A stretch of DNA of 64,000 nt from Isoetes taiwanensis (lineage: Eukaryota; Streptophyta; Lycopodiopsida; Isoetales; Isoetaceae), in assembly GCA_021234155.1 (NCBI GenBank), contig JAJEKV010000036.1:10987426-11051425 (forward strand), written 5' to 3'. The position numbers and the translations under genes are program-made. The first letter of the stretch is position 1. Each line of letters begins with the position of its first letter. Positions 13,313-52,070 of the stretch are shown one piece after another. Below the pieces are notes generated by a model. It was not told the DNA's origin, did not search any database, and saw nothing but the letters and a program-made list of their open reading frames with translations.

Positions 13313-15449
13313 TCATGGACCACTGTTAAAGAAAGAAAAATTACCATGAGGCCAGAAAAGGGGCCAGTTCAAGCCATCTCTTAGAGCTGCCAGATTGGCA
13401 CATGCATCCAAAGCAGTCGCATGAGTGTATTTATCTGGTTTCAGCCCTTCAGCATTCATTCGATTGAAAAACTCCAAAGCCTTCTTATTATTTCCATTCT
13501 GCACATATGCTCCAAGCATACTTGTCCAGGAGATAACATCACGATAATGCATTTCATCAAACAATTGTGTTGCATTCTTAACATCTCCACAATAAGCATA
13601 TGTTGCAAAACAACTACAAGGTCTCCTTCAAAACCCATGGCAACAATGTTCTGATGGATTTTCTTTCCAGTTACCAGATCCATCATAGCAGCACAAGCGT
13701 CAAGAGCACTCACATAAGTGACTTTATCAGGGACTATGCCCTCCAGCTGCATTTGCCTAAAAAATTCAAGTGCTTGATTCTCATGTCCATTCTGTGTACA
13801 TGCTGCAATTATGGAGTTCCATGACACTAGATCATGCAGAGGCATTTTATGAAAAATATTCCGGGCCTCTTGGATGCTCACTTGCTAGGCAAATGCTGCT
13901 AACATTGAATTCCAGGAGACTACATCACGACGTGGCATCTTTTCAAATACCATTTTAGCACCATCTAGGCTTCCAAGTCTTACATAGATCCCAAGCATAA
14001 GGTTCCAAGAGAATACATTGGGTTCCTGAATAGACTCAAATACTGCCTGAGCATCCTTCAAAGCTCCACATCTACCATACATTTCTACAAGAAGGTTTCC
14101 CAAAAACCTAACTTTTCCATATCCATACTTATCAATATCCTTCTGAACCCTTCTGCCTGGGGCCACCAGTCACATTTGTTCCGGGCACTGGTGGAGCCAG
14201 TTCTTCTGTATGGGGTCGAGGTGTGGGGCCCAGTGGTGTCTTTGGCGACTTGGAACGACTTAGAGCAGGTCCAGAAGGCATTTTTGACGCGGGCACTTGG
14301 GGTCAAGCCCTCAGTTCCATATCAGATCTTGTTGCAGGAGACAGGATTCATGCCCCTGCAGCATGCGGCCCTCGATAGACACATTGTTTATTTCCAGAAG
14401 GTGGCCAGCATGGGCGACACTCGGCTCCCGCACTTGGCTTACGCTGTGGCGATGAGCCCGCAACGACTCAGGGCTTGTTGGAAGGACAAGAGAGCCCAGT
14501 GGCTGGCGCGCTGGAACGTAGACGCACATAGGTGCGTCCAGGTGCACACAGACGCCGGCCGGGATAGGCTGAGGGGGTACTTGGACTCTTGTTTCCTGGG
14601 GAAGCTCTGGGACCACCATGCTCTGGAACAGGTAAAGGTGGCACACTACAAACAGCACATAAACCCCACCCTGGTTCGAGGCCCACAGCTCTACCTGCAT
14701 TCTCAGTTGCCCATGAAGAAGCGCAGGATCATCGCGTCCATTCGAACAGGGGCCCACCATCTTCGGCTTGAGACGTGTCGGTGGGTTGGAGAGCCGCGCC
14801 AGGACAGGCTTTGTCAGTGTTGCCCGCTGGGAATTGTTGAGGATGAAAGCTATGCCTTCCAGAGCTGTCCAGCCTATAGTCAGATTCGGGCTCGCTACAT
14901 TCTCTTGGTGCGACCTGGTCTGCCCCTGCACGAGCTACTCAGTACGCCGTCAGTTCGATCCCTTGGCTCCTACCTCCAGGAGGTTTTGGATCTGCGGACT
15001 CACCTCTGCCCCCGGGCGCCTATCTGAGGTGCCGGGAATTCATGTGTATATGTTTGTACAGCTGCCAGCAGGCTTGTTGCTGTGACGGTTTTTCCCTCCT
15101 AAGGGGGGGTTTTTTAATCCGGGTAGCAACGGGCTTGCTGCACCCGTGTAATTTGGGTCCCATAGGCCGATTGGCCTCCGCGGACGATGAAAGAACCTTC
15201 CTTCCTTCCTTCCTTCCTTCCTTCCTTCCTTCCTTCCAAATCCTTAGTGTTACCACAATGCCGAATGATAGAAGCAAAATCCATGCAATGCAATCTATAG
15301 AGGCGTGTTTTCCCTGAATCAAAAGCTTGAAATGTGATAGTCTTACCAGTAGAAGCTGTTCTGCAAGCGCTAAAGAAATTTCGGCCCAAAACGATTGTTT
15401 TACCCCTTGAAACCTGGAAACGCTGATCGTTTAAGTCTGGCCATTCCAA
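13313..15449 (-). pseudogene. PPR gene split by a LINE insertion
   Basis: The minus-strand reading begins around 15449 (MEWPDLNDQRF...), reaches FASIIRHCGNTKDL at about 15250, is interrupted by LINE-B, then resumes at 14166 with APGRRVQKDIDKYGYG. Typical PPR motifs follow: GNLLVEMYGRCGALKDAQ, DVVSWNSMLAAFA, then an in-frame TAG at 13885-13887, SWNSIIAACTQNGHENQALE, a frameshift near 13610, and DVISWTSMLGAYVQNG up to about 13313, where the sequence ends out of family. The product would be a PLS-class PPR protein for organelle RNA processing. Insertion, stop and frameshift show that it is dead. The upstream frame overlaps an ATP sulfurylase remnant. Confidence 0.88.
14167..15237 (+). mobile_element. 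LINE-B 5'-truncated copy inserted in a PPR gene
   Basis: An open frame of about 283 residues (14176-15027) carries the C-terminal part of a non-LTR retrotransposon ORF2: FRALVEPVLLYGVEVWGP just after the reverse transcriptase, LARW, PMKKRRIIASIRTGAHHLRL, and a Cys/His cluster CQCC...ESYAFQSCP. The 3' UTR contains CGGTTTTTCCC and GGGTCCCATAGGCCGATTGG and ends in (TTCC)n at about 15196-15237. It is the best preserved C-terminus of the family here. The reverse transcriptase is missing because of 5' truncation, which is typical of target-primed insertion. Removing it rejoins the PPR frame. Confidence 0.9.
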
Positions 15450-18890: not shown

Positions 18891-21800
18891 CCTAGATCAA
18901 CACATATCAGAGAATCTAATGAGACAAAAGAATGTAAACCCATAAGTATCAAAGGAAAGAATGAAACAAATTGAGATCACTTTATTAGAGAAAAGACAAA
19001 ATGAATAATAAGATGAGTGGAACGAACAGGAAAAATAGGTAAGGGCATGTGGAGATGCTGGTTCACAATGGCCAACACCTAACAAAAGCTTTCAAATCAA
19101 AGGATCAAGTGTACCTCGTACTGGGCAATATGAAGTAACTGGAGTACTTATGATTAGAGAAACAAAGGGCATACAAAGAAAAATATAGCAGGTTGAAATT
19201 AGTGGAATTTGTAGAGCAAAAGGACTAAACCCACAAAAAGGGACTATGAGAACAAATGGAAAGACAATTTTAAAGGAATGGGAGAAATTGAACAAATAAG
19301 AATAACAGCACGGGTGGAAATGGAAGTAAACAAGATAAATGAATCTACATAACATCGAGCAGAAATGGAGTTGGGCCATGCTAGGATGCAAATCGAACCA
19401 ATAGGTGTACTAGAGCAGTCTAGAGGGAGTGGAACAAGGAGAACACAAGACAGACAAATGGAATAAATGCGACTCATAAAGTATAATGAAACAGATGAAA
19501 CTTTTGACACGAGTATCCAGCAATGTGTAAGAACATAACATAAAATATTATGATCACAAAGCTCATGCGACAACAAATCCATATCGGAGGAACGAAAGTA
19601 ACAGAACGAAATGACTACCTATTTGCACAGATAGAACATTTGTTACTCCCTAGCCGAGCAAAATAGAGCCCACAAAATTCAAGAAACAAGTACGATCAAT
19701 TGAAACTAAAAAAGGAACACGAAATGAGAAGATGCCAAGCGAAGAAAATAGAGTCAATACAACAAACGGAGAAATAACAAAAGGATGAAATGGAACAACA
19801 GGGTCGGTAAAGACAAGACCACCTTAACACAAAACGAATATTAAAGTGGCAAATAAGACTACCTGACTGGAACCCAAACTAGCAAGCATAATAAATAAAA
19901 GCACTAATACCAAGGTAATACCTTGAGACGAAATACTGCAAAAAATAAAGCAAAGGCACTAAGGGGATCAAATAAACATAAACAGAATTAAAGATGCAAT
20001 GAAAGAAGTTTCAATCATACAAAACTGATAAACATTGACAACTAGAACAAATGACTATGGAGTAAATGGAAGAAAATAGAACAAAAAGAACAAATGGGAC
20101 CAAAGAGACTCGCAAATAATATAAATGACAAAAATCAAGCAAGTGGAACCAAGATCACATGAAAAGGAGGAGAATGGATCCAACAAGATTAAAGGAGCAA
20201 GACGGACTATTAAGACTAATATTAACACTAGAGCCAACTACGAGAGAAATGAAATTGAAGCAATTGCAGGAATACATCAAGTAAATAGCAGACAAAAGGA
20301 TTAATGAGATAGATAGGATATATAGACAATATTGGGGTCAAATTAGAAAGCAGAATGAATCGGAACCAAAATAACAAAGGTAGTAATACCTTGAACTGAA
20401 CTGCTGCAAAAATGACGCAAAAGAAACTAAGGGGTTTAAATACTAATAAGCAACCCTAGAACAAGGGATGCAATTAGAGCAAGTAGAACAATGAAAAGAA
20501 TCAAAAGTGGGACTAACAAATCTATTTGCATACCTGAATCTACATCTAATGCTAAAGCAAAGGAAAGCCACAGAGACGTTCCAACAATAAAACCAATGAA
20601 TTAATGACAACTAGAAACAAAAGACTATGGAGTTAATGGCACGAATAGAACAGACATGACTAAATGGGCTAGCAAAATGCAACAAAGTAAATAATGAAAG
20701 AAGACCAAAGAGAATAATAGAATAGAATGGATCCCAAGATTAAAAGAGCAAGACACACAACTAGAATGACTGGATTAGGTAAAATAACAGTAGAGCCTAA
20801 AATGACTAAAGGCACTAGTAGAATACCTAGACAATGGAACTATTGAAGCAACTGAACAATGATCCAAACAGAGCAAATTGCCAAGGAAAGTTTTAAGCTA
20901 AGATGAAATGAGACAAATATGATGGTCTAAAAGGGGCAAAAACGAGAATAAAGGGAAACAAATAAAAGCGAAATGAAGCAAAATAGAACTAGAGACGCTC
21001 ATATGATGAATGAAGCTACTTCAACTAATGGAATATATAGTGCAATGGAACTACTCAAGAGAACATGAACCAACAAAGCAAATGGGGCAAGTATACCCAA
21101 AGGATCTAAACATATAACGGCGAACAAAAACGGATGGTGGTGGTAAAACAAAAGGTATATTACATGGCTGGAGCAAAGGATCTTGGAAAAATCTAGGAGG
21201 ATAGGGGCAGCAATAAACTGTGGGAATATTGCCAGATTGGAGCAAAGAAACCAGAACTAGAAGAACAAGATGTGCATTATAACACATGGGACTGAAAGAA
21301 TTAATGAAGAAAACAAAGTACAAATGGCTACAGGGAATGGATTAAAAAGGAGCAAATTAGAACAAAATGGGACTAATGGGATACACATTGAGATGATTAA
21401 AGCAACGAAAATTAGTAGAGCAACTACAACACATGGGATAACTAGAAAAGAAACAGAAAATAACAAAAAGGGGACTAACATGAATAATGGACCTAAGGGA
21501 GCCAACTAGATCAAAGGAACTCATGGATTAAAGAAATTAAATGAATTGTAGAAATAATAAATCAAATGGAGCAAAAGCAGAGCAAAATATAGACTTCAAA
21601 TGGGAACTAACATCCAAGTGAAAAATAGAAGCGTAGACACCAACTTGATGCAAAACCAAAGCCAACTAGCCAACCTTTGATAACAACCCTAACCAAAAGA
21701 CAGAACTGAAAGAACTTAAACAGGATATGTACACATGAAGACCCTCAATTTCATGTGAAAAATAAGCTAAAGAAATAAAACAATGCATCGAATGTAATAA

Positions 21801-22640
21801 AACACAATATTATAATCCCGAGTATAGAGGGACTGTCAAATCCTAGACACAATATCGATAGCTATGTACAGGAAACAAACATACAACAAAAGTACTGGAG
21901 ATCAAGAAACGAACCTGGATGAATAATTTATGTAACGTTAACTTCTCACTGAATGATTATCCAAAGCAAATAGCACCTTTGAAAATAGAATCTGCAACCT
22001 TGTAGAAATAACAAGCAAGGATGATGACAATAAGAATGCATGAACCTCAACCAAATGGTGTAGTCCAAAGGCTTAATACCTTTGTACAAATAAAAGCCAA
22101 AAAACCATTACGTCAATCCACGCTTAACCCAAAAGGAGGCTAAAGCATGTGACTCTTACTCCAAAAGTGTGAACCCTATAGAGTCTCTAAGTCAATAAAG
22201 AATAGGACTCACCAACGTTTAAATGATCAGGATATATTATGGAGAAGCATCTCTAGGTTGAAAGCACTTAAACGAAATATAAATGATCATATCGATTATG
22301 TAACAGGAACTAACAAACATGAAAACTTAAACAAAGGGTATTTGTTATGTAAAATTAAAACATAGGGACTTGTGGCACATTGGTAAAGTGGCAACAAAGG
22401 GGAGCCCCTAGGAGAATAGCAATCAATCTGACTCAATGGCCATAATAGATGAAAACGATGGATAAAAGGCGATGAATATCAGGAAAAACAACAAAGGCAT
22501 GCAAAAGAAATCCTAGAACAAAATAGGTCTAGTGATGTACTAATGTGAGGGGCATACTTGGACAAACTAAGCATACAACCTCGCCCTAAGCTAAACCTCG
22601 TCATACCAATGCTCAACTACCATTAAAAATTAAATCAATG
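18890..22640. repeat. Long A/G-rich degenerate repeat tract
   Basis: For about 3.7 kb the plus strand is dominated by A and G, with endless variants of AAATGGAACAA, GGACTAA and GAGCAAA, and no gene. Longer segments recur: TAATACCTTGA...CTGCAAAAA at about 19917 and about 20391, and GACTATGGAGT(T/A)AATGG at about 20050 and about 20624, which suggests old units of about 470-570 bp. Frames on the minus strand are short and low-complexity. Confidence 0.6.
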
Positions 22641-29439: not shown

Positions 29440-30290
29440 ACCATGCACTTGCAAAGGCAAGACCCATTCCTTTGGCCTTGGATACTTGGCAAGGATCATA
29501 AGAGGAATACTTGTTGAACCAGTATTCACATTAGCATATTTGATCCAAGACCTAAGTGTTCATGTTCAGCTCAACCTCCTCTTCTTCGAGTAGCCTATGA
29601 ACATGTGACCCAAGTTGGACATGCAACATCAAGTCCCATCTACTGCAAGAAGATGCAATGTTGTCAATCCTTTTTGGAATAGGGCTCAATAGAGGTATGT
29701 GGATTCCAGTGCTGATTAGAGGCTGGTAGATGGCACGTAATCTATTTGGTTTGTTGCATCTTGATTTTGAGTGATAGATGCTATTATAGGCCCCATGCCC
29801 ATCTTAACCATCGTCCTACTCGAAAGATCTAGCCTTCTCTTTGATTGCCCGGTGGATACATGAACTTTCTGAATTTATTGATGCTCTGCTCATATTGGAA
29901 ATCCTTTTGGCATGAGCTCTCCTCTTCTCCTCCTTTGTGCCTCAATTTTTCTAGGTTTTGTTCAGCCTGTGTCCTCATGGCCTTCTCAATCCTAACCGTC
30001 TCAAAGAAGGCACCTGAACTAATGTGAACTAAGCCACTCATGTCATGACCCTTACCTTTCCTTCTTCCACCTCGCGATTGCAGTGCCTAATCACCATGGC
30101 ATGCACAGTAGCCAGATGTCTCTCCTTGTTCAAACACTTGTGGTCTTTCAGTATTCACATCACAATTGGCTAAGTGTGCATTGCCCCTTCTGGTCCAACC
30201 TCCTCACCTCGTGAATCCACTTCCTCCATCAAGGTCTTCCTGATGTACTAGAATTCTGTGGCACCTAGAGCATGCAAAGGAACATTGCTA
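29440..30290 (-). mobile_element. pogo/Tigger-like transposon fragment, copy 3
   Basis: On the minus strand the order matches the C-terminal part of the 39-41 kb copy: GAAGTGGATTC (about 30225), then MSGLVHISSGAFFETVRI (30041 downward), KFRKFMYP, then GACAACATTGCATCT (about 29660) and GAACATGAACACT (about 29560). The DDE region is not visible. Many stops are present. Confidence 0.85.
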
Positions 30291-32131
30291 GTGGAATATA
30301 TCATTTTTGGAGAAGATAGTAGAGAACTTGCCACTTCTTGTGACGACTAGTATCATGGAAAAGGCTCCCTATAGAGGCAAGAACTTTGTCAAGTTTGTGT
30401 ATCGTCTTCTCCAAGCACTGATTGCCCTGACAGTGTCAGTTAGGTGGCAGTTGCAGATTCCACGTGAGTATTGGTCTCGTACATGACATCGGGTTTAGGA
30501 TAAACTACTCCATCCCAAGGTATCTGTGCGTTGATGGCATATCATTCACAAGTCTCTGCGTGTTAATGTCTTTCGTCATCAATGTGGTCCTCAAGTCTCT
30601 ACATTGTATCTAATCTACCTTGCGAAGATTGAATCACTTAAACACTACTTGCTTGCATGTCTTGGGGTCCAACCAGCTTGAACTTGGTTGCCATAGTGCC
30701 TTGGATGGCCATTCTTCTAGCATCTTACCCTGATAGGTGGTCCTTAGCTAAGAATAGGACATTTCATCTTGGTTCTGGTTAGAGACCTTAAACCTGCTAT
30801 ATTTGATAATCACATGCAAAGCAGCTCCTAACATGTCGTGCCTAGGTAGTGGATTTGTGATATGTAGAATAAAGTGATGTAGAATATATTCGTGGTGTGG
30901 TGATGAATAGAATGATGTCCTTCAATAAAAAAAAAAAAAAAAGATCTTGGTTCTGGTTAGCTCTTGGTCTATTTAAGAAGGATGTGGACTTCACATTTTT
31001 CAAGGCATTTGTTCTTCTCCTCAAACTAAAATAATGATGGCTTATAAGTGCTCTCTTATTGAGGCGAGGTTAGGAATCGTATTTGGATCCAGTATCTCCA
31101 AATTAGTATACATCCCTAGGCCTCTCTTACGAGGCAAGTGCATTTTGCTTGAGGCTCTAGTTCCGATGACATATGCACATGCTTGTACTATAAGACGAAG
31201 TTTTATTTTCGCGTACTTTGCTTTTGATTAATTAAACTTACGTCCTTCAAAAAGAAGAAAAAGAAATGGAGGATCACATTGGCTAATACTAAGATTGCTA
31301 GCAAATTGTCATGTAGCTTTTATAAATAATCAAAGCATTGCTAAACATAACTGGCCACCTATATTCCACCATAAAGTACATGAAAAACATATAATGTGAG
31401 AGACGATTGTTCAAAAAATTCCAATCTTCACATAATTTGCCTCCTCTAGCAAGATGTTGTCTCTACAACTGATGACTACCTATAATAGAAATGCACTTCT
31501 TCAGACACCCATTACTAGTCTTATATATGTGGGTTTGGGAAAGATTAGTATATGATCAGTAATATTTGGTTGTAATAATATCATGACTGATAATAATTGG
31601 TAGTAATAACATCACCGAGTTTGCTAAGAATGCAAATCCTCATGTTCGCCGAATAATCATAATAGTAAAGAAGCTAGAGGGCAAAATTGTGGGAAAAGCG
31701 AAGTGAAGCCAACAAGCAATCCTTGCCCTAATTGTACATTTTTTAATTATTAAAATAATTCTCATGCAGTTGTTTATCGTAAAAAAAGGAAGTGACTTTC
31801 TGATTTCCTGATGCAGTCTTGGTGTGGTTCAACATTTTATAGATCTGTCAACCTTTGCGGATTGGTCAAATGTCATGAATTCGTCATTGTAAACCCTTCA
31901 GCAATACAAGACCCAAAAAGCTTTTATCAGTTAGCGCATCGTACAATGGACATACATACTTATCATACACTAAATGGATGGCACACAATTGAAGACATTA
32001 GCACACTTTGGGCATGCCATCAACAGACATTTTTTATCTATAACATTTGCGTTAAAAAAAAGCTAAAGTTATAATATAACGACGGCATATTTTTGATGGG
32101 ATCCTTGCAATAGAATACTATTTCTAAGGTG
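30291..32131. other. No gene found; 5' flank of the pectinesterase gene
   Basis: This interval has an A-run at about 30927-30941 and otherwise AT-rich sequence. The last few hundred bases must hold the pectinesterase promoter, but I see no certain TATA box or element. Confidence 0.4.
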
Positions 32132-33984
32132 ATGGGAATAAAAGCTGAAATTGCATTTCAACTAATTTTAGCTTTGGTTGGAATAACAACAATTTATGGT
32201 AGTAATGTGAGCCTGCTATGCCAAGAGACACAATTTCCACAACAGTGTCTCAGATTTCTAAGTAGCCAACCCAAGGAGGCAACCAGCTCATTAAATCCAA
32301 TTGATTTGGCAGCTGCTATGGTGAGCAGTCTTCTGAATGAAACAAGAACATCTTTGGATCTGTCAACATGGGTTCTCATTTCTGGTGATTCAGATGACAA
32401 TTCTGCAATGTCAAGTTGTGCAGAAATGCTTGAATATTCATCATACAGAATTTCCATGTGTCAACTCATGGATTTCTATAATTCTTCTTCAATAGAAGAT
32501 GCACAACATTTTATCAGTGCAGCACTCACATATCATACTGATTGCATAGATGCGATCTCTCAAGTTTCTGCGCCCTCCTCGACAACCAAGTCTTTAGCAA
32601 AAAAGCTGAAGGAGGAGGCAGTGCCTCTGTTGAGCAACACCCTTTACCTTCTGCGCAAGGCTTTAAACGCAAGTTATAAAGCTGAGGTCAACATAGCCAA
32701 GGGATTGAGCATGGAATACTTGGAAAAGCCCACTTGGATTACTGAACATGATCACTACCTCTGCAATGCACCACTGAAGGATCTAAAACCATCAATGGTA
32801 GTGTCAAAGCAAAATCAAAAGATTGAAGACTCAGAATTGACAAATCCTTATATGCAGTATGTAACATTTGAGACCATTCAAGATGCAGTAAATAATGCGC
32901 CTTCTCACAGCACAGATAGGTATTTGATCTACATCACTGAGGGGATCTATGAAGAACAGGTGTGTTAATATTCCCTAGCGCTTAGTTGCATAAGAGCATA
33001 AGATATAGAATTCTAAGAGCTTGTATGGAAAAACAGGTAATGGTTCCTCATAACAAGAGTATGCTCATGTTTGTTGGGGATGGCGAGAACCGGACTATCA
33101 TCAGATATAACAACAGTGTTAATTCCCTAGTCTCAACATATCTTTCCTCTACATTAGGTACTCCCCTGTAATATAAATTCTAGATAATTCTGTTAGCACA
33201 TGTTTCTTGCACAATGCACCAAAATGTAGGGTGCATGAAGCAATGACCATTGACTATTTCATCCTTTTCTTGAATATTTATTCCAGGGATCAATGGGGAT
33301 CAGTTTTTGGCACGAGACCTTACAGTAGAAAACACTGCCTCGGCGGATGGAGGACAGGCAGTAGCATTGAGAGCAAATGGAGATAAGTCTGCATTCTACA
33401 GGTGTTCATTCAAGGGCCATCAGGACACCTTATATGCCCACACGCTCAGACAATTCTACAGATCATGCTACATAGAAGGCACCATAGACTTCATTTTTGG
33501 CAATTCTGCCTCCATTTTTCAGCAATGTGATATCAGAGTAGTTCCTGGCAAATATAACTCTGGACTTAGCACATTGACTGCTCAAGGGAGGTCAGATCCC
33601 TCTCAGGCAACAGGCATGGTGTTCCAAGGCTGCAATGTTGGTGCAAAATCTGAGTTCTTGATTCAGTTTGAATCAAACCCCACGGGTCACAAGGTATTTT
33701 TAGGGAGGCCCTGGAAATTTTATGCCAGGGTTGTTTTCCTTGATACTTATTTGAGTGAAATTGTAGACAAGAGTGGCTGGATGAGTTGGAGTATTGATCA
33801 AAACAATACTAATGTATTTCTAGCAGAGTATAACAGTTATGGTCCTGGCGCGAGTGTGCTTTCAGGTAGGGTACCCTGGTCGAGGCAGCTTAATCACACA
33901 CAAGTTTCTCCATTCTCAGTGCCTAATTTTATTGAGGGGAATGAATGGCTTCCATCCACTGGTGTTCCTTGCCAACCTTGCTAA
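32132..33984 (+). CDS. Pectinesterase with N-terminal inhibitor (PMEI) domain
   Basis: Exons 32132-32959, 33037-33157 and 33287-33984 join in phases 0 and 1 with GT-AG introns of 77 and 129 bp, giving 548 residues. A signal peptide (about 1-25, with LILALVGITTIYG) targets the cell wall. Residues 30-210 form a PMEI-like helical domain with Cys pairs (LCQETQFPQQC). The catalytic beta-helix holds GGQAVAL (Gln about 340), QDTLY (Gln362, Asp363), DFIFGN (Asp384) and LGRPW (Arg457, Trp459); all key residues of the family are present. It removes methyl groups from homogalacturonan in the cell wall. ATG 32132 is the first methionine ahead of the signal peptide. No break is seen in a neighbourhood full of broken genes. 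Confidence 0.95.
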
Positions 33985-34380: not shown

Positions 34381-35190
34381 TTTCTTGGGAAAAACTACAA
34401 AATACCCTTATGTTACAAATTTTATTACACACCCTTGAGTTTTCATAATTATTTGAGATGCCCTTGGTCAAAATACAAAATATTATGTATCTTTTAAAAT
34501 TATTCAAATGCCTTTAAGCTTTACATTAATTTCCCAAATGCCCTTAAGTTTTCTTTCAATATCCAAAATGCCCTTGAGAACTAGAACGTGAGATTTCCTT
34601 CAAATTTCAAATGCTTCAAAATTCACTAAATACCCTTAGGCCCTGCATGTGAGTGAACTATGATCTCTGCCCTTGCATCCTTCACCGCTTCTTAACTCCT
34701 AAATATCCTCTTTCTTGATTTTATTTCACTAAAATAAGTTCTTATTGTAAATTGGATCGAATTATTACTTTCGACAAGAGGATCATTGCAAATCACTAGA
34801 GGAAATCGATGGGCTGAGAGCAAATCAATGGACCAGAAATTAATTTGGTGTCTTGCCTTCCTTTAAGGTAACAAGAATAAAAATAAGCGTCTTTGCTAAA
34901 AAAGCGCCATGAATATCTGTTACAGAAGGGTATTCTATGAAATACAAAAAACGAGAGGGCATTAGGTGAAACTTAAATTTTACAGATGGATATACGTTGA
35001 CCAAGGGCATCTCAAAAATTTAATTAAACTCAGGGGTATATCGTGAAATTCGTCAAAACATAAGGGTATTTTGTAGTTTCGGGTGGGTTTGTTTATCTTT
35101 TGTTCGTCTTATGAATCATATCTTCAAGGGAAACCCTACAAAATAAATACCCTCATGTTTTGACAAATTTCGCCACATACCCTTAACCTT
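34381..35190. mobile_element. Foldback repeat with arms rich in ATACCCTTATG / ATGCCCTTG
   Basis: ACTACAAAATACCCTTATGT through GAGATGCCCTTGGTCAA at about 34393-34475 returns in reverse complement at about 34995-35085, giving arms near 90-100 bp that enclose about 520 bp. A third, direct copy begins at about 35133 (CCCTACAAAATAAATACCCT). Inside, ATGCCCTTAAG-type units repeat at intervals of about 40-45 bp (34510-34580). No coding capacity; MITE-like. Confidence 0.65.
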
Positions 35191-35207
35191 TTAAAAATTT
35201 ATGGAAT

Positions 35208-38159
35208 GCAAGGAGAGTAAGGCTTCTTGATTTTTGCTTCTACTCATGGTTTTCGCTTGCCATTTCTATAAGAACTTGGATGTTTCTATTGTTGGCATCA
35301 CGGCTGCATGCAGATGCATTGGTACCTATAGGCCTTACTATTATGGTACATGCAACTTCTTGCAAGCAAGTGAGATGAGGGATAATATTGCTTATAATTG
35401 CGCCACTTTGCAAGTAGATTCTTGCAAGTAACAAACAACTTGAGCAAGCTGGTCCTAGGCTGAAAGAGTGCTTTCCTTCTCTTGGAGCATCTTGGTAAGC
35501 AGATTTTATCCCAGTCTTTGTGCTCAACATTACTGTGTGGCCTTGACTGCATTTAGGAGGCGCGCTTTAACTTGCTTGCATCCTTCATGTTTATGTGTTG
35601 CAGATAATGACAGAACGTCTGTTAAAGTCAAGGCATTATGTATCTTCTGGACTTCATGAAATAGGTTTGCATCAGATTCTTCTTGATTTCTTCTCAAAGC
35701 CTGTGCATCTCAGCCAACCCAAACATATAGTATCTTTTTGTTCCATTACAGCAAAGTAGGTTTGCTCCAGATTCTTCTTGATTTCTTCTCAAAGTCTGTG
35801 CAAATCAGCCAGCCCAAACATATAGTATCTTTTAGTTCCATTGCGTTTTTGGTTAACAAAGCGGATTCTAAATTGAAGATGGTACTTTTATTTTGTATGG
35901 GGGAAGAGCAATTGGGCCTCCATTCCGGTTTCCAGGTGGGGTCCCGTGATCGGCGGCAGCTGGGAGCGGGTCACCTGGAAACTAGAATGGAGGACCAATT
36001 GCCCTTCCCCCGCAATATAGAAATAGGGGAGATTTTTTTTCTCCCCTTTCTTTCTTCACATTTTTTTCCTCTATTCATCTCTCCGCCACGAATGCATCAA
36101 GGTGCTAGGGCCGACTTCCGCGAGATCCATCAAGCAAAGCTGGAAGGATGAAGGCCTTTGCTCGAAAGAAGCGTTTTGAAGGCATTTTGGCTTTTTTCCT
36201 TGGTTTGATGGAGATTTTTGTAGCAGTTGGGCTTTTTATCGTTGATTCCTCTTGCTTAGTTGTATCAGAGACTAGTATTACCAGAGTTGGAGCTGAAAAC
36301 ACAAATCCTAAAGGTTTCTGTCAAGTTCTTATTTATTTTTGTTGATTTTTGCATTCGTTAACTGTTTTTTTTTTTTTTTTTTTTTGACAGGTTTGGGGAA
36401 GGAGATACTGTCGATTCCGTCGAGTTCTGTAGTTAGTTCAGAGTGTATAGGTAAAGATTTAACTGTTTTTTGGTTGGAGATTTGATAGTCTTTTGTGCAT
36501 GCAAGGATTTTTAATGCTGGATGCTCGAGGCTTGTTGTAGATGGAGGTTATACTTCGGAATAGCTCGGTTTTGGAGGTAAGTTTTCATGCATTTGGCTAT
36601 AAATTAGTTATTAGATCTAATTTTTACACAATGCTATTGTAGATGGTTGTGGAGTTGTAAATTTTGGAGCAACAGAGGTTCAGACGGCTGCATGTATATT
36701 AAGTAAGTTAGTACTGTTTTAGTAGGGTAGCATGCATGTGCACTAGGTAAGTTATTAAGTTAGTAGTAGTCTAGAGTAGTTTGTTGTGGAATTAGGTAGA
36801 GTATATTTAAAAAAAAATATACTTAATGTTTTGCAGATGCATCTGAGGTGCCAAATGTTATACCTGGAGTGATAGATGAAGAATCTGGCATGGTGAATGT
36901 GTCTTCGGAGCAGCAGTTGAATGGATCTTAGTCATGTAAGTGTTTACTTTTAGATAGTTTTTTAATTATTATTCTTTGTATTTAGGTGTTGGCTGTCCAT
37001 CATTTAGTCTCGGTAACCCTTTTTAGGCTACTGCTAAAGATGACAGTGTAGGCTTAAGTTGAGGATTGTTTTGATGGTGGCAACAATTTGTTGACGGATG
37101 AGGGGCATGACAATTTGATTGCAGACAGTTTCATTATGGATGAGGGTAGTTCAAGTTTGATTACAGATGAAATTAGACATGATGGCAATATGAATATGAC
37201 TGATTTAGTGGTTGATCGGCGTCGTGGAAAGAAGCCATTGAAGCTTGGTGGTTTTGTTGACTCCGGCTGCCGCCGGTCACGGGACCCCATCTGGAAACTG
37301 GAATGGAGTCCCAATTGCCCTTCCCCCATACAAAATAAAAGCATCACCTTCTTAGAATTCGTGCTAAGACAACATACAATGGCTTAACTGAATGAAAATG
37401 AATGAATGTTTACCTGGAAACTCCTTGGGACTACTAGAAATAATAGAAACTTAACCAAAAACGTAATGGAACTAAAAGATACTATATGTTTGGCCTGGCT
37501 GAGATGCACAGACTTTGAGATGAAATCAAGAAGAATCTGGAGCAAACGTAGTTTGCCATAATGGAACTAAAAGATACTATATGTTTGGGTTGGCTGAGAT
37601 GCACAGACTTTTAGAAGAAATCAAGAAGAATCTGGAGCAAACCTACTTTGCCATAATGGAACTAAAAGATACTATATGTTTGGGTTGGCTGAGATGCACA
37701 GACTTTTAGAAGAAATCAAGAAGAATCTGGAGCAAACCTCCTTCGCGAAGTCCATAAGATACATAATGCCTTGACATTAACAGAGGTTCTGTCATTATCT
37801 GCAACACATAAATACAAAGGATGCAAGCAAGTTAAAGCGCGCCCCCTAAATGTAGTCAAGGCCACACAATATTGTGGAGCACAAAGATTGGGATAAAATT
37901 TGCTTACCAAGATGCTCCAAGAGAAAAAAAGCACTCTTCCAGCCTGGGACCAGCTTGCTCAAGTTGTTTGTTGCTTGCAAGAATCTGCTTGCAAAGTGGC
38001 ACAATTATAAGCAATATTATCCCTCATCTCACTTGCTTGCAAGAAGATGCGTCTGCATGTAGCCTTGGTGCCAACAATAGAAACATCCAAGTTCTTATAG
38101 AAATGGCAAGCAAAAACCATCGAGTAGAAGCGAAAATCAAGAAGCCTTACTCTCCTTGC
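35208..38159. mobile_element. Large inverted-repeat element, about 2.95 kb
   Basis: GCAAGGAGAGTAAGGCTTCT at 35208 reappears in reverse complement ending at 38159. From these ends the arms match for about 0.75 kb (35208-35965) and 0.9 kb (37255-38159), with identity around 90% by eye. The inner edges are CCATTCCGGTTTCCAGGTGG on the left and its relative on the right. Arm lengths differ because a subrepeat of about 96 bp is present twice on the left (35664, 35760) and three times on the right (37465, 37561, 37656), and the left arm has an extra 40 bp. The unique centre (35966-37254) has small exon-like pieces. No transposase is visible and no target-site duplication is evident. It could be a non-autonomous Mutator-like element with long terminal repeats, or an inverted duplication. 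Confidence 0.8.
36148..36563 (+). CDS. Possible small membrane protein inside the inverted-repeat element
   Basis: An ATG at 36148 (after GGAAGG) starts MKAFARKKRFEGILAFFLGL, a basic N-terminus followed by a hydrophobic helix to about residue 37. A GT-AG model joins 36148-36313, 36391-36450 and 36541-36563, all phase 1, ending in TAG for about 83 residues. The second acceptor is preceded by a T-tract of more than 20 bases and GACAG. Further exon-like bits at 36840-36930 and 37055-37260 (acidic, LLTDEGHDNL and SSSLITDEIRHDG) could belong to it or to a captured host gene. I do not recognise the protein. Expression evidence is needed. Confidence 0.3.
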
Positions 38160-39073
38160 AAGAAGGTCTGCACAATATATAAATGACATCAAGAATGCTG
38201 CTTAAGAATGCTTGTGGAAATAAAAGGCATTCATTTTTATTTCCTGGCAGTTAAATACCTGATACAACCAGCAACTAGAAAGCTTTCTGCTTTGGATGTC
38301 CTGCAATAAGCCTGCACCACAAAATGTTCATACATAAGCATGAAAGCTAAGCTTTGTGAGATTTTAATCTGTGCTTATAATAGATCCGAAAGAGTTGGAG
38401 CTACATAAACAGACACTGGAGAATGGGAAAAACCTCATGTCGAATGAAGCTATTTATAGGAAATCGTATGCCTCGGGTTAGGCAACTCTACTAAAAATAA
38501 GAAATCCTAATTTGAAAATACCAAGCGCACAAGAAGGCCCAAAAACCCTAATATCATATAATGTATGACCCAAAATAGCAATTCTAAAAAACTACACGTC
38601 TCAAATCAAATTGGGGCCTCATTGCAATTTTGCAAGATAATAGTATCCAATATGTGAGTAGGGTATGGTCACCCCCTACTGCGACTTGCCCGCGTCGGCG
38701 GGACCAGGGCTCCTGCTAGCACGTTGCAACGCCCCCAAGTACCGCGCAGCGTAGAAATGCCCTGCACGTATGCTGGGCCCTGACACCGCGCAGGACATAA
38801 GTTACAATCGTGACACGTCACACCCAGCGTCGATGGCTATGGCGCATTTGACGAGGCCTCCCCAACCCATGTCGTGCCCTTTTGCCAGACATAGCACGTT
38901 CAGTAAAGCCCGCCAATTTAATTGAGATAGGGACAATTCAATGCGTTTTACTTCGAATTGGCGGACAGATCGATTGACCCTTTTCCAAATAGAGTGGATA
39001 CTTTAAAATGTTTTGAATCCAAATTGTGCTCTATATCACCATATCAGGAGCTTCTACTGCTTCAACTAGCTCG
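38160..39073. other. 5' flank of the pogo-like element; GC-rich block
   Basis: 38160-38640 is featureless. 38670-38910 is unusually GC-rich (CCCGCGTCGGCGGGACC, ACCGCGCAG twice) and probably belongs to the 5' non-coding part of the pogo-like element. I could not find its terminal inverted repeat. Confidence 0.4.
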
Positions 39074-41031
39074 ATGGCACAGACCGGATCGAACAGGATG
39101 CACGGCAATGCCACGCCAATCCAAGTACCTGCCAATACCAAAAGGGTTAGGGAAAAGCGGGTGAGGAAGAGAAGGACGGATCAAACTCCGGATAATACCA
39201 TGGCAAGGCAGCCTTCAATATCCAAGAGCAGCCAGTGGACTGAACAACAGATGGAGGACATCTTGGAAGAGGTTAATGAATATGGCATTTCAATTAGAGA
39301 GGCCTTGGTATACCTGAGTCTATATACCATGATTGGCAATATGGTAGAATTACCCGTAAAGAAAAGAAGCATTCTCACGTTCTTACTCCCAAGCAGGAAG
39401 AAGAACTAGTTGCCTGGGCTCTTGATAGAGCGAACTCGGGTATAGGGGTAACCTTGAGTGTAGTCAAGGCAAAGGCAGTCCAAATGGAAAATGCTGGGGA
39501 TATAAGTACATTAGATGGTATGCCAGGCAATAAGTGGTGGAAGCTCTTCAAGAAGAGGCATCCTAACATAACTTTGAGGAGTGCCCAGACATTGGAGAGG
39601 GTAAGGGCACTTGCCATGAATCAGCCAAACCTGGACATGTTCTACAATGGTCTCAAGGCCATCTATGATGAGTTTGATTTTCCACCATCCAGGATTTGGA
39701 ATGCTGACGAGACTGAGATACAGGCAGGCAAGGTTAAGGGCCTAAAAATAATTGCAAGGAAGGGTGCACGAGATGTCTAGAGAGTGGGTGACAATTCTAG
39801 TATGTGTTAATGCTGAAGGGTATAGATTGCCCAACTTGTACATCTTTAAGTGTAAGAGGATGAAGGCAGATTACATAGCAGATGTGAAGAAGGGGCAATC
39901 CAGGCAGTTCAGCAGCATGCATGGATGACCGCTAAACTTTTTAAGTCGTAGTAGACACACTTCTGATCTAGGGTACCTGGAGGAGTGTCCCCAGAAAACC
40001 CACATCTAATTTTTCTGGATGGTCACGGTAGCCATGTGGGGTTGGATATTATATTGGCTGCAAAAGAATTCGATATTCATTTTACACTACTCCCAACACA
40101 CATATCCCACAAACTCCAACCATTTGATGTGGCTTGTTTTGCACCATTCAAGGCAGCCTTCAAGAAATTGAGAGCTGAATGGATGTGTATGAGGCGCAAG
40201 CTGGAACCCAAGAGGGAAGAGATTGCTGAGGTTACATCCAAGGCAATTCATGTTGGGCTAACACCTGACAACATTAAGGCAAGGTTCAGGGCCGCAGGCA
40301 TTTACCCCTTCGATAGCACAAAGGTGGTGGCATCTAGTATCAGCATGGCATGTGCATCAGAAGGTAATGTGTCTCAGCATGTTGCAAGGAACGCTCACCA
40401 TTGAAGTGATGATGGGAGTGAACCAGAAGGTGAGGGTAATGACGAGGATCTGGAAGAAGATCCTCATGTTGACATATATGTTGATATAAATGAAGGGATG
40501 TATGAAGTTTACAACCTTGCTCCCAATGTTCCCAATGCCCCTGGTTTCCAGCACATTATGGAGGGATTGGTCGTTGAAGTGAATTCAATAGCTCAGCCTG
40601 CACATGAAGAGGGCAGCCAGTTGTCCAAGCCAATATTTGAGAGAGGAGAGCCTTCTGGCTGCCATGTTGAGACAGCAAGACTTCAATCACAAGGTGGAAG
40701 GAGAGGTAAGGGTCCTGACATGGCAGGTTTGGTTCACATTAGCTCAGCTGCTTTTTGTGAGAAGCTCAGGGTTGAGAAAGCTATGAGGGTGCAGGCTGAA
40801 CTCGAGAAAAATGAGAGGTTGAAGGCTAAGAAAATCGAGGCAGCTAAGAAGAGGGCATTAAGAGAAGAAGAGAAGAAAAGGGCCCAATCTAGGAAGGAAG
40901 AAAGAGAGAGTTGGAAAAGAACTGAGGCTGAATTTGAGCTTGGAACCAAGAGGTTCAGAGAATTCATGTATCCACATGGCCAGTCAAGAGTGGCATCCAC
41001 CTTCAACACTCTAGGGATATGGACGCTATGA
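39074..41031 (+). pseudogene. pogo/Tigger-like transposase, frameshifted (copy 4, longest)
   Basis: From the ATG at 39074 come a basic N-terminus, then a psq-type helix-turn-helix (QWTEQQMEDILEEVNEYGIS, about 39235). A frameshift near 39350-39400 leads to LTPKQEEELVAWALDRANSG, a CENP-B-like second DNA-binding domain (KWWKLFKKRHPNITLRSAQ), IWNADETE (first catalytic Asp), a shift and TAG at 39778, LIFLDGHGSH (second Asp, about 40005), then THISHKLQPFDVACF. A TGA at 40402 interrupts. The frame resumes in an acidic linker and a charged coiled coil (LKAKKIEAAKKRALREEEKK, about 40810-40910) and FREFMYPHGQ. This is the DDE_1 class of pogo/Tigger transposases. Three lesions make it inactive. Confidence 0.88.
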
Positions 41032-41573
41032 AGAGAAGATTGGACCTTCTGAATAGAAGGAGGGTTAGATTGGGCAGAAGGGTTGTCTGTGAAGGTGCTA
41101 CTCAAGCACATGATGGTGCAACTGAACTGGACTATGTGCCTTCCAGCCAACCCCCAATCAGCATTGGTGGTCACATAACTATAGTCAGGCCCATCCCCAA
41201 CAGAGTTGACAACATTGCATCTCCTTGCACAAGATGGGACTTGCCTTCACATGTTGAGCCTGATGTCCGTGCACATGACGAGGTTGACTTGGACATGAAC
41301 ACTCAGGCTTGGGTAAGGTATGCTGATGTGAACACTGGCCCAGCAGGTGATCCACTCCCTGCTAATGATAAGACGAGAATTATTAGGGGAGTGGTGGCTG
41401 ATGGTGTAGAAAGAGATATAGTATCTAGGGCTAATATAGTATCCAGAGATATAGCTTCGATCCTCCTTCTTGAGGAGGACGTTGCCATTGTCGTCGATGC
41501 GGACTTGGCAGTGGATCTGCTGGCCACTCCGGGCATGATGCAGTGCATCCGCGACCTCCGAGCATATGCATGA
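41019..41573 (+). CDS. ORF downstream of the pogo-like transposase
   Basis: A 184-codon frame overlaps the transposase end by 13 bases in another frame. It starts MDAMKRRLDLLNRRRVRLG, continues ELDYVPSSQPPIS and NRVDNIASPCTRWDLPSH, and ends in an acidic, Val/Asp-rich part (ILLLEEDVAIVVDADLAVD). The first two thirds have a decayed counterpart in copy 3 (29440-29830), so this is conserved element sequence: either the true C-terminus of the transposase after a frameshift, or a second ORF. No known domain. Confidence 0.55.
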   Translation: MDAMKRRLDLLNRRRVRLGRRVVCEGATQAHDGATELDYVPSSQPPISIGGHITIVRPIPNRVDNIASPCTRWDLPSHVEPDVRAHDEVDLDMNTQAWVRYADVNTGPAGDPLPANDKTRIIRGVVADGVERDIVSRANIVSRDIASILLLEEDVAIVVDADLAVDLLATPGMMQCIRDLRAYA

Positions 41574-45963: not shown

Positions 45964-46139
45964 TCCAGGCAGATCTGTATCACAAGCAAGAAAGCACAAG
46001 GAATTTGGACCGGCAACAACAAATTCCACCATTTTCTCTCCTCAATCAGAACAAATTCTGGCCTGAACTAAGGGACCCAGAGACGCAGTCAGAAGGAACC
46101 TAGAAATTCGTTACAAGGAACCCAAGGGTAGAAAGACAA

Positions 46140-46873
46140 GCAAGCCCAGTGGTTCTCGCTATGGAATGTGCAGGCACACAGATGTGGAACAGTGCATACA
46201 CCGAAGGAATGCGCTGCCTTGAAGCAGTACTTGGATGCTTGCTTCATGGCCAAGCTTTGGGATGCAGAGGCCCTGTCACATGTCAAGGTGGCAATATCGA
46301 CAGCAGGTTAATCCCATGCTCACGAGGGGCCCACACCACTACCTGTGCACCCATCTACCCATGAAAAAGCGCAGGGTGATTGCTTCCATTCAAGACAGTG
46401 CACACCACCTCCGCATTGAGACAGGGGAGATGGATTCGAGCCGCGTGAGGACGCCAGTCCGCCCAATGCCGCCAACAGGCGCCATTGAGGATGAAAGTCA
46501 CGCCCTCCGTGCCTCGTCCGTGCACGAGCATATCCGGGCTCGGTATGCTCGGTTAGTTGTGCCCCATCGCCTTGCATGAGCTAATCGAGCACGGCCTCTG
46601 AGGGCTTGTTGGGATCGCACCTCCGTGAGGTAATGGATACGCTCGATTCGCCCCCGTCCGACATTAACCTCACCGTGTACTTGTGATTATGTATATAATC
46701 AGCAAAGTATGTCGGCATCCTTATTGCTACTAAGGTTTTTCCCAAAACCCTTCTGGCGGGGGTTTTTAATCCCGTAGTAATACGCTGTGCCGCTCTCTCT
46801 TTGTACTTGGGTCCCATAGGCCAGTTGGTCTCCGTGGGATCGATAAAATCATATTCTATTCTATTCTATTCTT
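46140..46873 (+). mobile_element. LINE-B 3' copy ending in (ATTCT)n
   Basis: This matches 14500-15190 from CAGTGG...TGGAA onward: MKKRRVIASIQDSAHHLRIE (about 46361), a broken Cys/His region, then the 3' UTR with AAGGTTTTTCCC, TGGGTCCCATAGGCCAGTTG (about 46809) and CGATAAAATC, followed by (ATTCT)n at 46853-46873. The ORF has several stops and shifts. Confidence 0.85.
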
Positions 46874-49582: not shown

Positions 49583-50013
49583 ATGCCAGGATAGGCTTTG
49601 TCAGTGCTGCCAGATGGGAGCCATTTAAGATGAATGTCACGATTTTCAGAGATGCCTAATATAAATCAGATCTGGGCTTGGTATGCTCTCTTGGTCAGGC
49701 CAGACCAGCTGCTACATATGTTACTGAGCACGATCTCGGTGCGCTCGCTAGGATCATACATTCAGGAGATAATGGATCTGAGGGCTCACATATGCCCCCG
49801 GACAACCACTTGATGGGCAGGAAATACTTCATGATGTATGTATGTATATTTGTATAGCCTGTTAGCAGTCTTATTGCTGCCACGGTTTTACCCTTGAAGG
49901 CCCTTTGGGGCAGGGGTTTTTTAACTCGGCCAGCAATATGCCTGTTGCGCTCTTGTATTGGATCCCATAGGTCGATTGGCCTCCATGGATGATAAAAATC
50001 ATTCAATTCAATT
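49583..50013 (+). mobile_element. LINE-B 3' copy ending in (ATTCA)n
   Basis: It starts at CCAGGATAGGCTTTGTCAGT, the counterpart of 14810, and runs through the stop region and the 3' UTR (CACGGTTTTACCC, GGATCCCATAGGTCGATTGG, GATGATAAAAATC) to ATTCAATTCAATT at about 49998-50013. About 430 bp; 5'-truncated. Confidence 0.85.
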
Positions 50014-51010: not shown

Positions 51011-51506
51011 CTTAATGTCATATACATTATAAAATAGAACTCACTGAAGGTGAGAACTACTTCTTGGTATTAAGATGGGGCAAATTAATTTATAGGGGGT
51101 GTCTTTCTTTCCCAGCCTATGTCTTGATACTCGTGTTGTGCCAGGGTAGTTTTGTGTTGCAAATGTTCTGGGTCTTAAGAGTTGATTCTAGACATGGAGA
51201 CGTACTTGCATAACCCTATCTCTTGTAGTAGCCACCCTATCTTCTAATGAAGTCTCCAAATATGGCTCTTTGCTTTTAAGAAAATAATATAAGCAAGCTT
51301 TATTTTATAGTGCATCCTTTTACCTTTTCTAACAATCACCTACAATGTTGATACATTCCACTTCGATTCCTATGATACCTACATCTTCTTCCAAAGGTCA
51401 CTAACGCGAAAAAAAGGGGCGAGTAATAAGCGTGTTGGTTAATTGTGCATATGTACATTTGTACATGTCAATGTATTGATGTAGGGCATATTTGCGATCG
51501 CATGTC

Positions 51507-52070
51507 AAGAACCTCTTAGATATAAGATGATAGTGCCATTATTGCAGACATCTACAAGTGTTACAACTAGCACCTCTAGTGATAACCAACAACCTCTTGG
51601 ATATAAGATGATAGTGCCATTATTGCAGACATCTACAAGTGTTACAACTAGCACCTCTAGTGATAACCAACAACCTCTTGGATATAAGATGATAGTGCCA
51701 TTAATGCAGACATCTACAAGTGTTACAACTAGCACCTCTAGTTATAACCAATGCACCAAAAGGGCGGATCCTTCATAGAAATCATTATCCAATGGGCTCC
51801 AACCTTTCCAAGGTTTCATCCTATACCTCATAGACCATATTAATTCCTCCTCTTCTTCGAGATGCTTGCCCTCAAGGATGTGTCACACACCAATATTGCA
51901 ATGAAGAATTGGCTCTGATACCAAATGTTACAACAAGCACTTCTAGTGATAACCAATGCACCAAAGGGGTGGATCCTTCATGGAGATCGTTATCCAACGG
52001 GCCCCAACCTTTCCAAGTTTTTATCATATACTCCATAGACCATATCCATAAGAGCTTATATAGCAGCTGA
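51507..52070 (-). mobile_element. LTR retrotransposon relic with PBS and an 81-bp tandem array
   Basis: GGCTCTGATACCA at 51911-51923 is the complement of TGGTATCAGAGCC, the usual primer-binding site for initiator tRNA-Met, so the element reads on the minus strand. Two bases away begins the LTR edge TGTTACAACAAGC (51926 onward, to about 52070). A second LTR piece in the same orientation lies at 51559-51850, and only about 60 bp of internal sequence separates them. In the second piece the terminal 81 bp is repeated, starting at 51559, 51640 and 51721, with a partial unit from 51507. No protein genes remain. Confidence 0.75.

Follow-up and report, generated by a model that had tools for sequence, protein, structure and literature searches.

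The window, by which we mean the whole 64-kb stretch of DNA that was analysed, was taken as land-plant nuclear DNA and contains a receptor-like kinase gene (kinase domain E 5e-43), an F-box gene (E 5.5e-7) and, at 32114-33984, a pectin methylesterase gene with an inhibitor domain, in which the Pfam family PMEI was matched at E 1e-16 and Pectinesterase at E 7e-6, slightly below the Pfam cut-off. An element of 688 bp at 34392-35079 is bounded by terminal inverted repeats of ~80 bp, the outermost 23 bp of which are perfect. A decayed transposase at 39017-41031 (HTH_Tnp_Tc5 E 3.5e-8, DDE_1 E 1.4e-11) adjoins the right side of the unit described here, and two segments of this Tc5/DDE_1 region, 40680-40801 and 41130-41356, are repeated in inverted orientation at 29960-30084 and 29501-29742 respectively. 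On the minus strand of the right-hand region DUF6229 was matched at E 0.0069, short of its cut-off, and this was put down to chance.

The unit itself occupies 35207-38160 and consists of two long inverted arms around a centre. Its parts, together with the sequence abutting it on the left, are as follows.

35128-35209, plus strand: incomplete relative of the terminal repeat found in the 34392-35079 element, broken off at the left junction
35207-35963, plus strand: left arm, 757 bp, 92.8% identical to the reverse complement of 37263-38160; proposed to mirror E's right flank and to include the left terminal repeat
35659-35842, plus strand: two 95-bp subrepeats in the left arm
35899-37327, no strand assigned: inner element E, a proposed TIR transposon with matching ends T1 and T3
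35899-35963, plus strand: terminal repeat T1, 65 bp, with 6 differences from T3
35972-36011, minus strand: extra internal terminal repeat T2, 40 bp, 90% identical to T3 and T1
36012-37262, no strand assigned: interior of E, with gene-like pieces not above chance
37263-37327, minus strand: terminal repeat T3, matching T1
37263-38160, minus strand: right arm, 898 bp, the proposed original
37464-37748, minus strand: three 95-bp subrepeats in the right arm

An initial annotation of this DNA had described inverted arms of 0.75-0.9 kb and ~90% identity at 35208-38159. Both points were confirmed: the arms measure 757 and 898 bp and agree at 666 of 718 aligned columns (92.8%), with 38 transitions and 14 transversions, and each extends one base further outwards than had been stated. 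In a BLAST self-comparison of the window the arm pair had an E-value of 0.0 and was the strongest inverted repeat among the 36 of 38 self-matches listed (E up to 1e-6). The alignment is interrupted by six gaps: the left arm lacks 1, 95, 23 and 61 nt, and the right arm 36 and 3 nt. The 95-nt gap corresponds to one tandem subrepeat unit, present in two copies on the left versus three on the right. The subrepeats of the arms, like a 113-bp near-palindrome at 35899-36011, were absent from the initial annotation. The arms differ by ~7%, which speaks against their being a recent chimera of reads or assembly. An exact-pattern search with the arm subrepeat returned no matches in viral_contigs, a viral collection with little bearing on a plant sequence, and a 68-aa open reading frame spanning the right flank into the right arm had no matches in the PDB up to E 10.

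The mobile-looking part of this structure looks to be the inner element E, which we propose to be a TIR transposon, an identification made from its ends alone. These ends are sharp and match as inverted repeats. The end motif GGGGGAAGRGCAATTGG... occurs three times in the window against 0.14 expected, with T1 starting at 35899 and pointing right, and T2 and T3 ending at 36011 and 37327, both pointing left; T2 thus has the same edge as the outer pair. The bases immediately outside T1 and T3 are mirror copies of each other (TTTTATTTTGTAT and ATACAAAATAAAA). T2 is bordered on its outer side by different bases, and the GGGGG edge thus behaves like a genuine mobile-element end. No second copy of E was found within the 64-kb window, and the exact pattern of its end had no matches in viral_contigs or genome_contigs, viral and prokaryote collections that again have little bearing on a plant.

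The relationship between E and the arms is informative. Homology between the arms crosses the outer edge of E unbroken, continues through the 65-bp terminal repeat and stops at its inner edge, and divergence is alike in the terminal repeats (6/65) and in the remainder of the arms (46/653; p = 0.46). E thus sits at the centre of the inverted duplication, with mirrored flanks on its two sides; an ordinary insertion would give direct flanks. No direct repeat of 4-13 nt was present within 4 bases of the T1-T3 or T1-T2 ends, and a target duplication of E would have disappeared when one flank was mirrored in the way proposed.

T1 and T2 face each other and together form the 113-bp near-palindrome. 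Short palindromes can seed large ones. In one alternative origin this near-palindrome would have been extruded into a cruciform or hairpin end and then replicated into the large palindrome, the 1.25-kb interior being inserted or gained later and breaking the perfect symmetry. The hairpin does lie where the left arm ends on its inner side, but the right arm has T3 alone, without the second half of the hairpin, and the interior bears no mark of being a later insert; we regard this origin as very improbable. The near-palindrome was also tried as a microRNA and rejected, as its scores against many miRNA precursor models all fell below the gathering cut-offs and were scattered across unrelated families.

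At the outer ends of the unit, around 35207 and 38160, the only direct repeat of 4-13 nt within 4 bases was TGCA, which lies inside the arms; the lack of a clear target duplication in the initial annotation therefore holds at the outer ends, as it does for T1-T3 and T1-T2. On the left, the stretch at ~35128-35206 is similar to the terminal repeats of the adjacent 34392-35079 element (E = 7e-7), with scores of 55 and 38 on the two strands compared to maxima of 31 and 30 in 60 shuffles each. This likeness ends at the left arm, the trinucleotide TGC (35207-35209) being common to repeat and arm. Had a 2.95-kb transposon inserted here, the rest of the repeat would be expected on the right. It was not found in 38161-39160, where the best scores of 20 and 22 compare with shuffled means of 22.9 and 22.4, in a search that covered 1 kb to the right and presumed the cut repeat to be similar to its neighbour over its full length. 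The left outer end is thus best read as a rearrangement breakpoint rather than an insertion site. The cut repeat at this junction also suggests that the right arm is the original of the two, an assignment for which the support is indirect.

These observations bear on the main alternative, in which the whole 35207-38160 unit would be a decayed non-autonomous long-armed transposon of Mutator-like or Foldback type, inserted as one piece. Its long arms of 757 and 898 bp end at matching bases, in the manner of long terminal inverted repeats, and the 95-bp subrepeats in unequal number (2 versus 3) give it the arm-plus-subrepeat architecture of Foldback and Galileo transposons, whose long inverted arms likewise contain internal repeats. 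An extra terminal repeat is, furthermore, described for some Mutator-like elements (MULEs; PMC3310237). Set against this are the left end, which interrupts another repeat, the remainder of which did not turn up within 1 kb to the right, the lack of any transposase or gene signal, and the missing target duplication, which separates the unit both from Foldback and Galileo and from MULEs with their duplications of 9-11 bp, though age could have erased one. On balance we consider insertion as a single piece unlikely. The more specific suggestion of the initial annotation, that of a gene-capturing non-autonomous Mutator-like element, was not upheld: no Pfam family attains its cut-off, a target duplication is missing, the spliced open reading frames do not exceed those of shuffled sequence and the left outer end is best read as a breakpoint inside another repeat.

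Between the arms lie 1,299 bp (35964-37262), in agreement with the 1.3-kb centre originally described. This centre had been called unique, but it is not wholly so, since it contains T2 (35972-36011). Exon-like pieces had also been reported within it, and the peptide start MKAFARKKRFEG is indeed present, with its ATG at 36148, but the gene-likeness of these pieces does not rise above chance. A 126-aa open reading frame in four exons could be assembled by hand, compared to 66 aa for the best automatically spliced frame in the same stretch, and the latter length was equalled by 51/100 dinucleotide shuffles (34/60 on repeat). Under lax splice rules the frame reached 137 aa and was equalled by 48/60 shuffles. 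On the reverse strand the real value was reached by 97/100 and then 53/60 shuffles, and under lax rules by 10/60. The pectinesterase control was itself reached by 6/60 shuffles under strict rules and 0/60 under lax ones, so the strict test has limited power. Two peptides from the centre matched no Pfam families, and a six-frame search of 35.0-38.8 kb gave a single match, MPK1_gelsolin_C, at E 0.14 (12.7 bits; cut-off 27). The statement that the unit contains no transposase was borne out, as no transposase domain lies inside it and the Tc5/DDE_1 remnant is just outside, at ~39.0-41.0 kb. The exon-like pieces are therefore not evidence of a gene, and a short or broken gene fragment is possible.

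A cluster of motifs on the right flank, comprising AAACCCTAA at 38543 on the plus strand and, on the minus strand, TATAAATA at 38451 and TGGGCY at 38536, is one that we take to be promoter-like and to point into the right arm. The right arm was accordingly considered as exons of a minus-strand gene served by these motifs (38451-38551), and this candidate was dropped after the spliced-ORF test, in which 31/60 and 28/60 shuffles of the right flank and right arm (38660-37400) equalled or exceeded the real value. As flank and arm are no more gene-like than shuffled sequence, no gene spanning 38160 serves as proof that the right arm is the original.

Taken together, these features place the structure most readily among the fold-back inverted duplications at TIR elements, which are events of a known kind. 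The initial annotation had named a simple inverted duplication as the outcome that would count against its own proposal, and this fits better than a Mutator-like element, with the modification that a small transposon sits at the centre. The symmetry of the unit, the points at which it stops on the inside and the outside, the absence of a target duplication and the cut repeat can all be read directly in the DNA, and from them we infer a series of events as follows. At the start, the right end of E at 37327 would have adjoined the present right flank. The DNA would then have broken at or near the left end of E, leaving an end that bore the left terminal repeat and paired with the inverted right terminal repeat, either its own or that of the sister chromatid. 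Outward synthesis from this point would have copied ~830 bp of the right flank into a mirror-image left flank, and the new end would have been joined, through the 3-bp TGC microhomology, to a left side that had been trimmed back into another repeat. Insertions and deletions, including the change in number of the 95-bp subrepeats, and substitutions at ~7% of positions would have followed.

We give this local inverted duplication by fold-back repair at the small TIR transposon E (35899-37327) an even chance of being correct. Fold-back from the terminal repeats predicts a symmetry that reaches from the outer ends to the inner edge of the terminal repeats, as is seen here; the 3-bp microhomology offers weak support for the joining step. 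Against it, T2 has no explanation under fold-back repair, and the arm subrepeats also fit Foldback-type transposons. The scale is a further difficulty. In the yeast events described in PMC11724301, synthesis folds back from one break end and the other end is captured at 0-5 bp of microhomology, much as we propose for an inverted copy primed at one break end and joined by microhomology. Those events nonetheless span 2 to ~150 bp, most of them <14 bp, and are primed by ~10 bp, whereas here ~830 bp would have been copied from a 65-bp terminal repeat. Animal TIR transposons, as reported in PMC8277862, undergo gap filling without transposition, with a median microhomology of 2 bp and capture of other DNA. 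The repair proposed here would likewise be independent of transposition, at a TIR element and with microhomology, but the filler in the animal cases lies inside the element, while at this locus the copy lies outside it, as a mirrored flank.

MULEs with multiple terminal repeats provide another partial parallel, as E has the internal repeat T2 beside the outer T1. The elements described in PMC3310237 had to show a target duplication of 9-11 bp to be included, and their repeats are mostly tandem; E has no such duplication, and T1 and T2 face each other.

Whatever its origin, the unit is predicted to form a hairpin. The initial annotation proposed that RNA transcribed across both arms would form a long duplex, and as a structural prediction this stands, with 683 of the 757 left-arm bases pairing with the right arm. 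The predicted plus-strand fold has a minimum free energy of -1585 kcal/mol, compared to -779 for one stretch of the same length from the window, and the minus-strand fold reaches -1429 kcal/mol with 678 of 898 bases paired. Within the predicted duplex are 12 perfect runs of 21-45 nt. A transcript across both arms could thus feed siRNA and methylation pathways.

The arms may even be a working hairpin-RNA locus, compatible with any of the origins above, in which a transcript through them would be diced to siRNAs acting on the locus or on homologues of the arms. Apart from the perfect runs of the predicted duplex and the promoter-like motifs directed into the right arm, transitions between the arms are enriched at CG and CHG sites (18/93, against 20/231 at CHH; p = 0.012), and hairpin transgenes are reportedly methylated within their repeats (PMC9263138). 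For CHG alone against CHH, however, p = 0.088, and 12 other repeat pairs from the window, hand-picked among the 36 of 38 matches listed, most of them older and some overlapping, gave 27/100 at CG, 18/117 at CHG and 114/597 at CHH, so the CG bias is not particular to the arms. At most, the transition pattern hints faintly at methylation in the past. No Rfam family reached its gathering score anywhere in the window, the miRNA-family matches being sub-threshold only, and we judge a functioning small-RNA locus to be quite improbable. A one-step natural hairpin, in which fold-back primed by terminal repeats at a non-autonomous plant transposon mirrors host flanking DNA and the resulting small RNAs methylate both the locus and sequences homologous to its flank, is a similarly improbable extension of the fold-back reading.

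In geometry, the closest analogue of the unit is maize Mu killer (Muk). There, too, a duplication at a transposon is inverted, the two terminal repeats come from a single end of the element, and a hairpin transcript was proposed (PMC3440606). The inverted duplication described here similarly includes one transposon end, with both flanks of E and its terminal repeats mirrored. The two differ in that Muk duplicates transposase-gene DNA, whereas our locus, known from sequence alone, duplicates mainly flanking DNA. In the account given in PMC3440606, short antisense RNAs are present in silencing plants and silencing is attributed to them, the model of read-through from the flank is disputed and a minor role for the hairpin is left open; this dispute counsels caution over hairpin claims at our locus. 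An inverted-duplication origin has also been put forward for plant miRNA genes (Allen et al. 2004, as cited in PMC3237417). Adjacent inverted copies such as these arms could give a comparable fold-back transcript, although nothing in the window matches a known miRNA family at the gathering score.

The unit looks like a repair scar of an ordinary kind and shows no sign of being a novel gene or transposon. Were the fold-back reading true, it would nonetheless be a legible case of how a TIR transposon, without moving, can make a long inverted repeat of its flank, and such inverted repeats would be raw material for silencers resembling Mu killer and for young miRNA genes. Should the one-step hairpin reading be true, it would amount to a general way for TIR transposons to convert whatever sequence lies beside them into a silencing hairpin. 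More generally, the locus cautions that long-armed inverted repeats are not all gene-capturing transposons.

Several further features of the window were recorded. Plus-strand AT skew reaches 0.44 at 20001-22000, the highest among the 2-kb steps of the window. A diverged repeat in 13969-15192 recurs in two parts, 14481-14805 at 46131-46452 (67%) and 14798-15192 at 49585-49997 (69%), and its first copy overlaps a 352-aa open reading frame that has no Pfam match. Finally, a tandem repeat with an 81-bp unit in three copies (97% matches) lies at 51506-51751.
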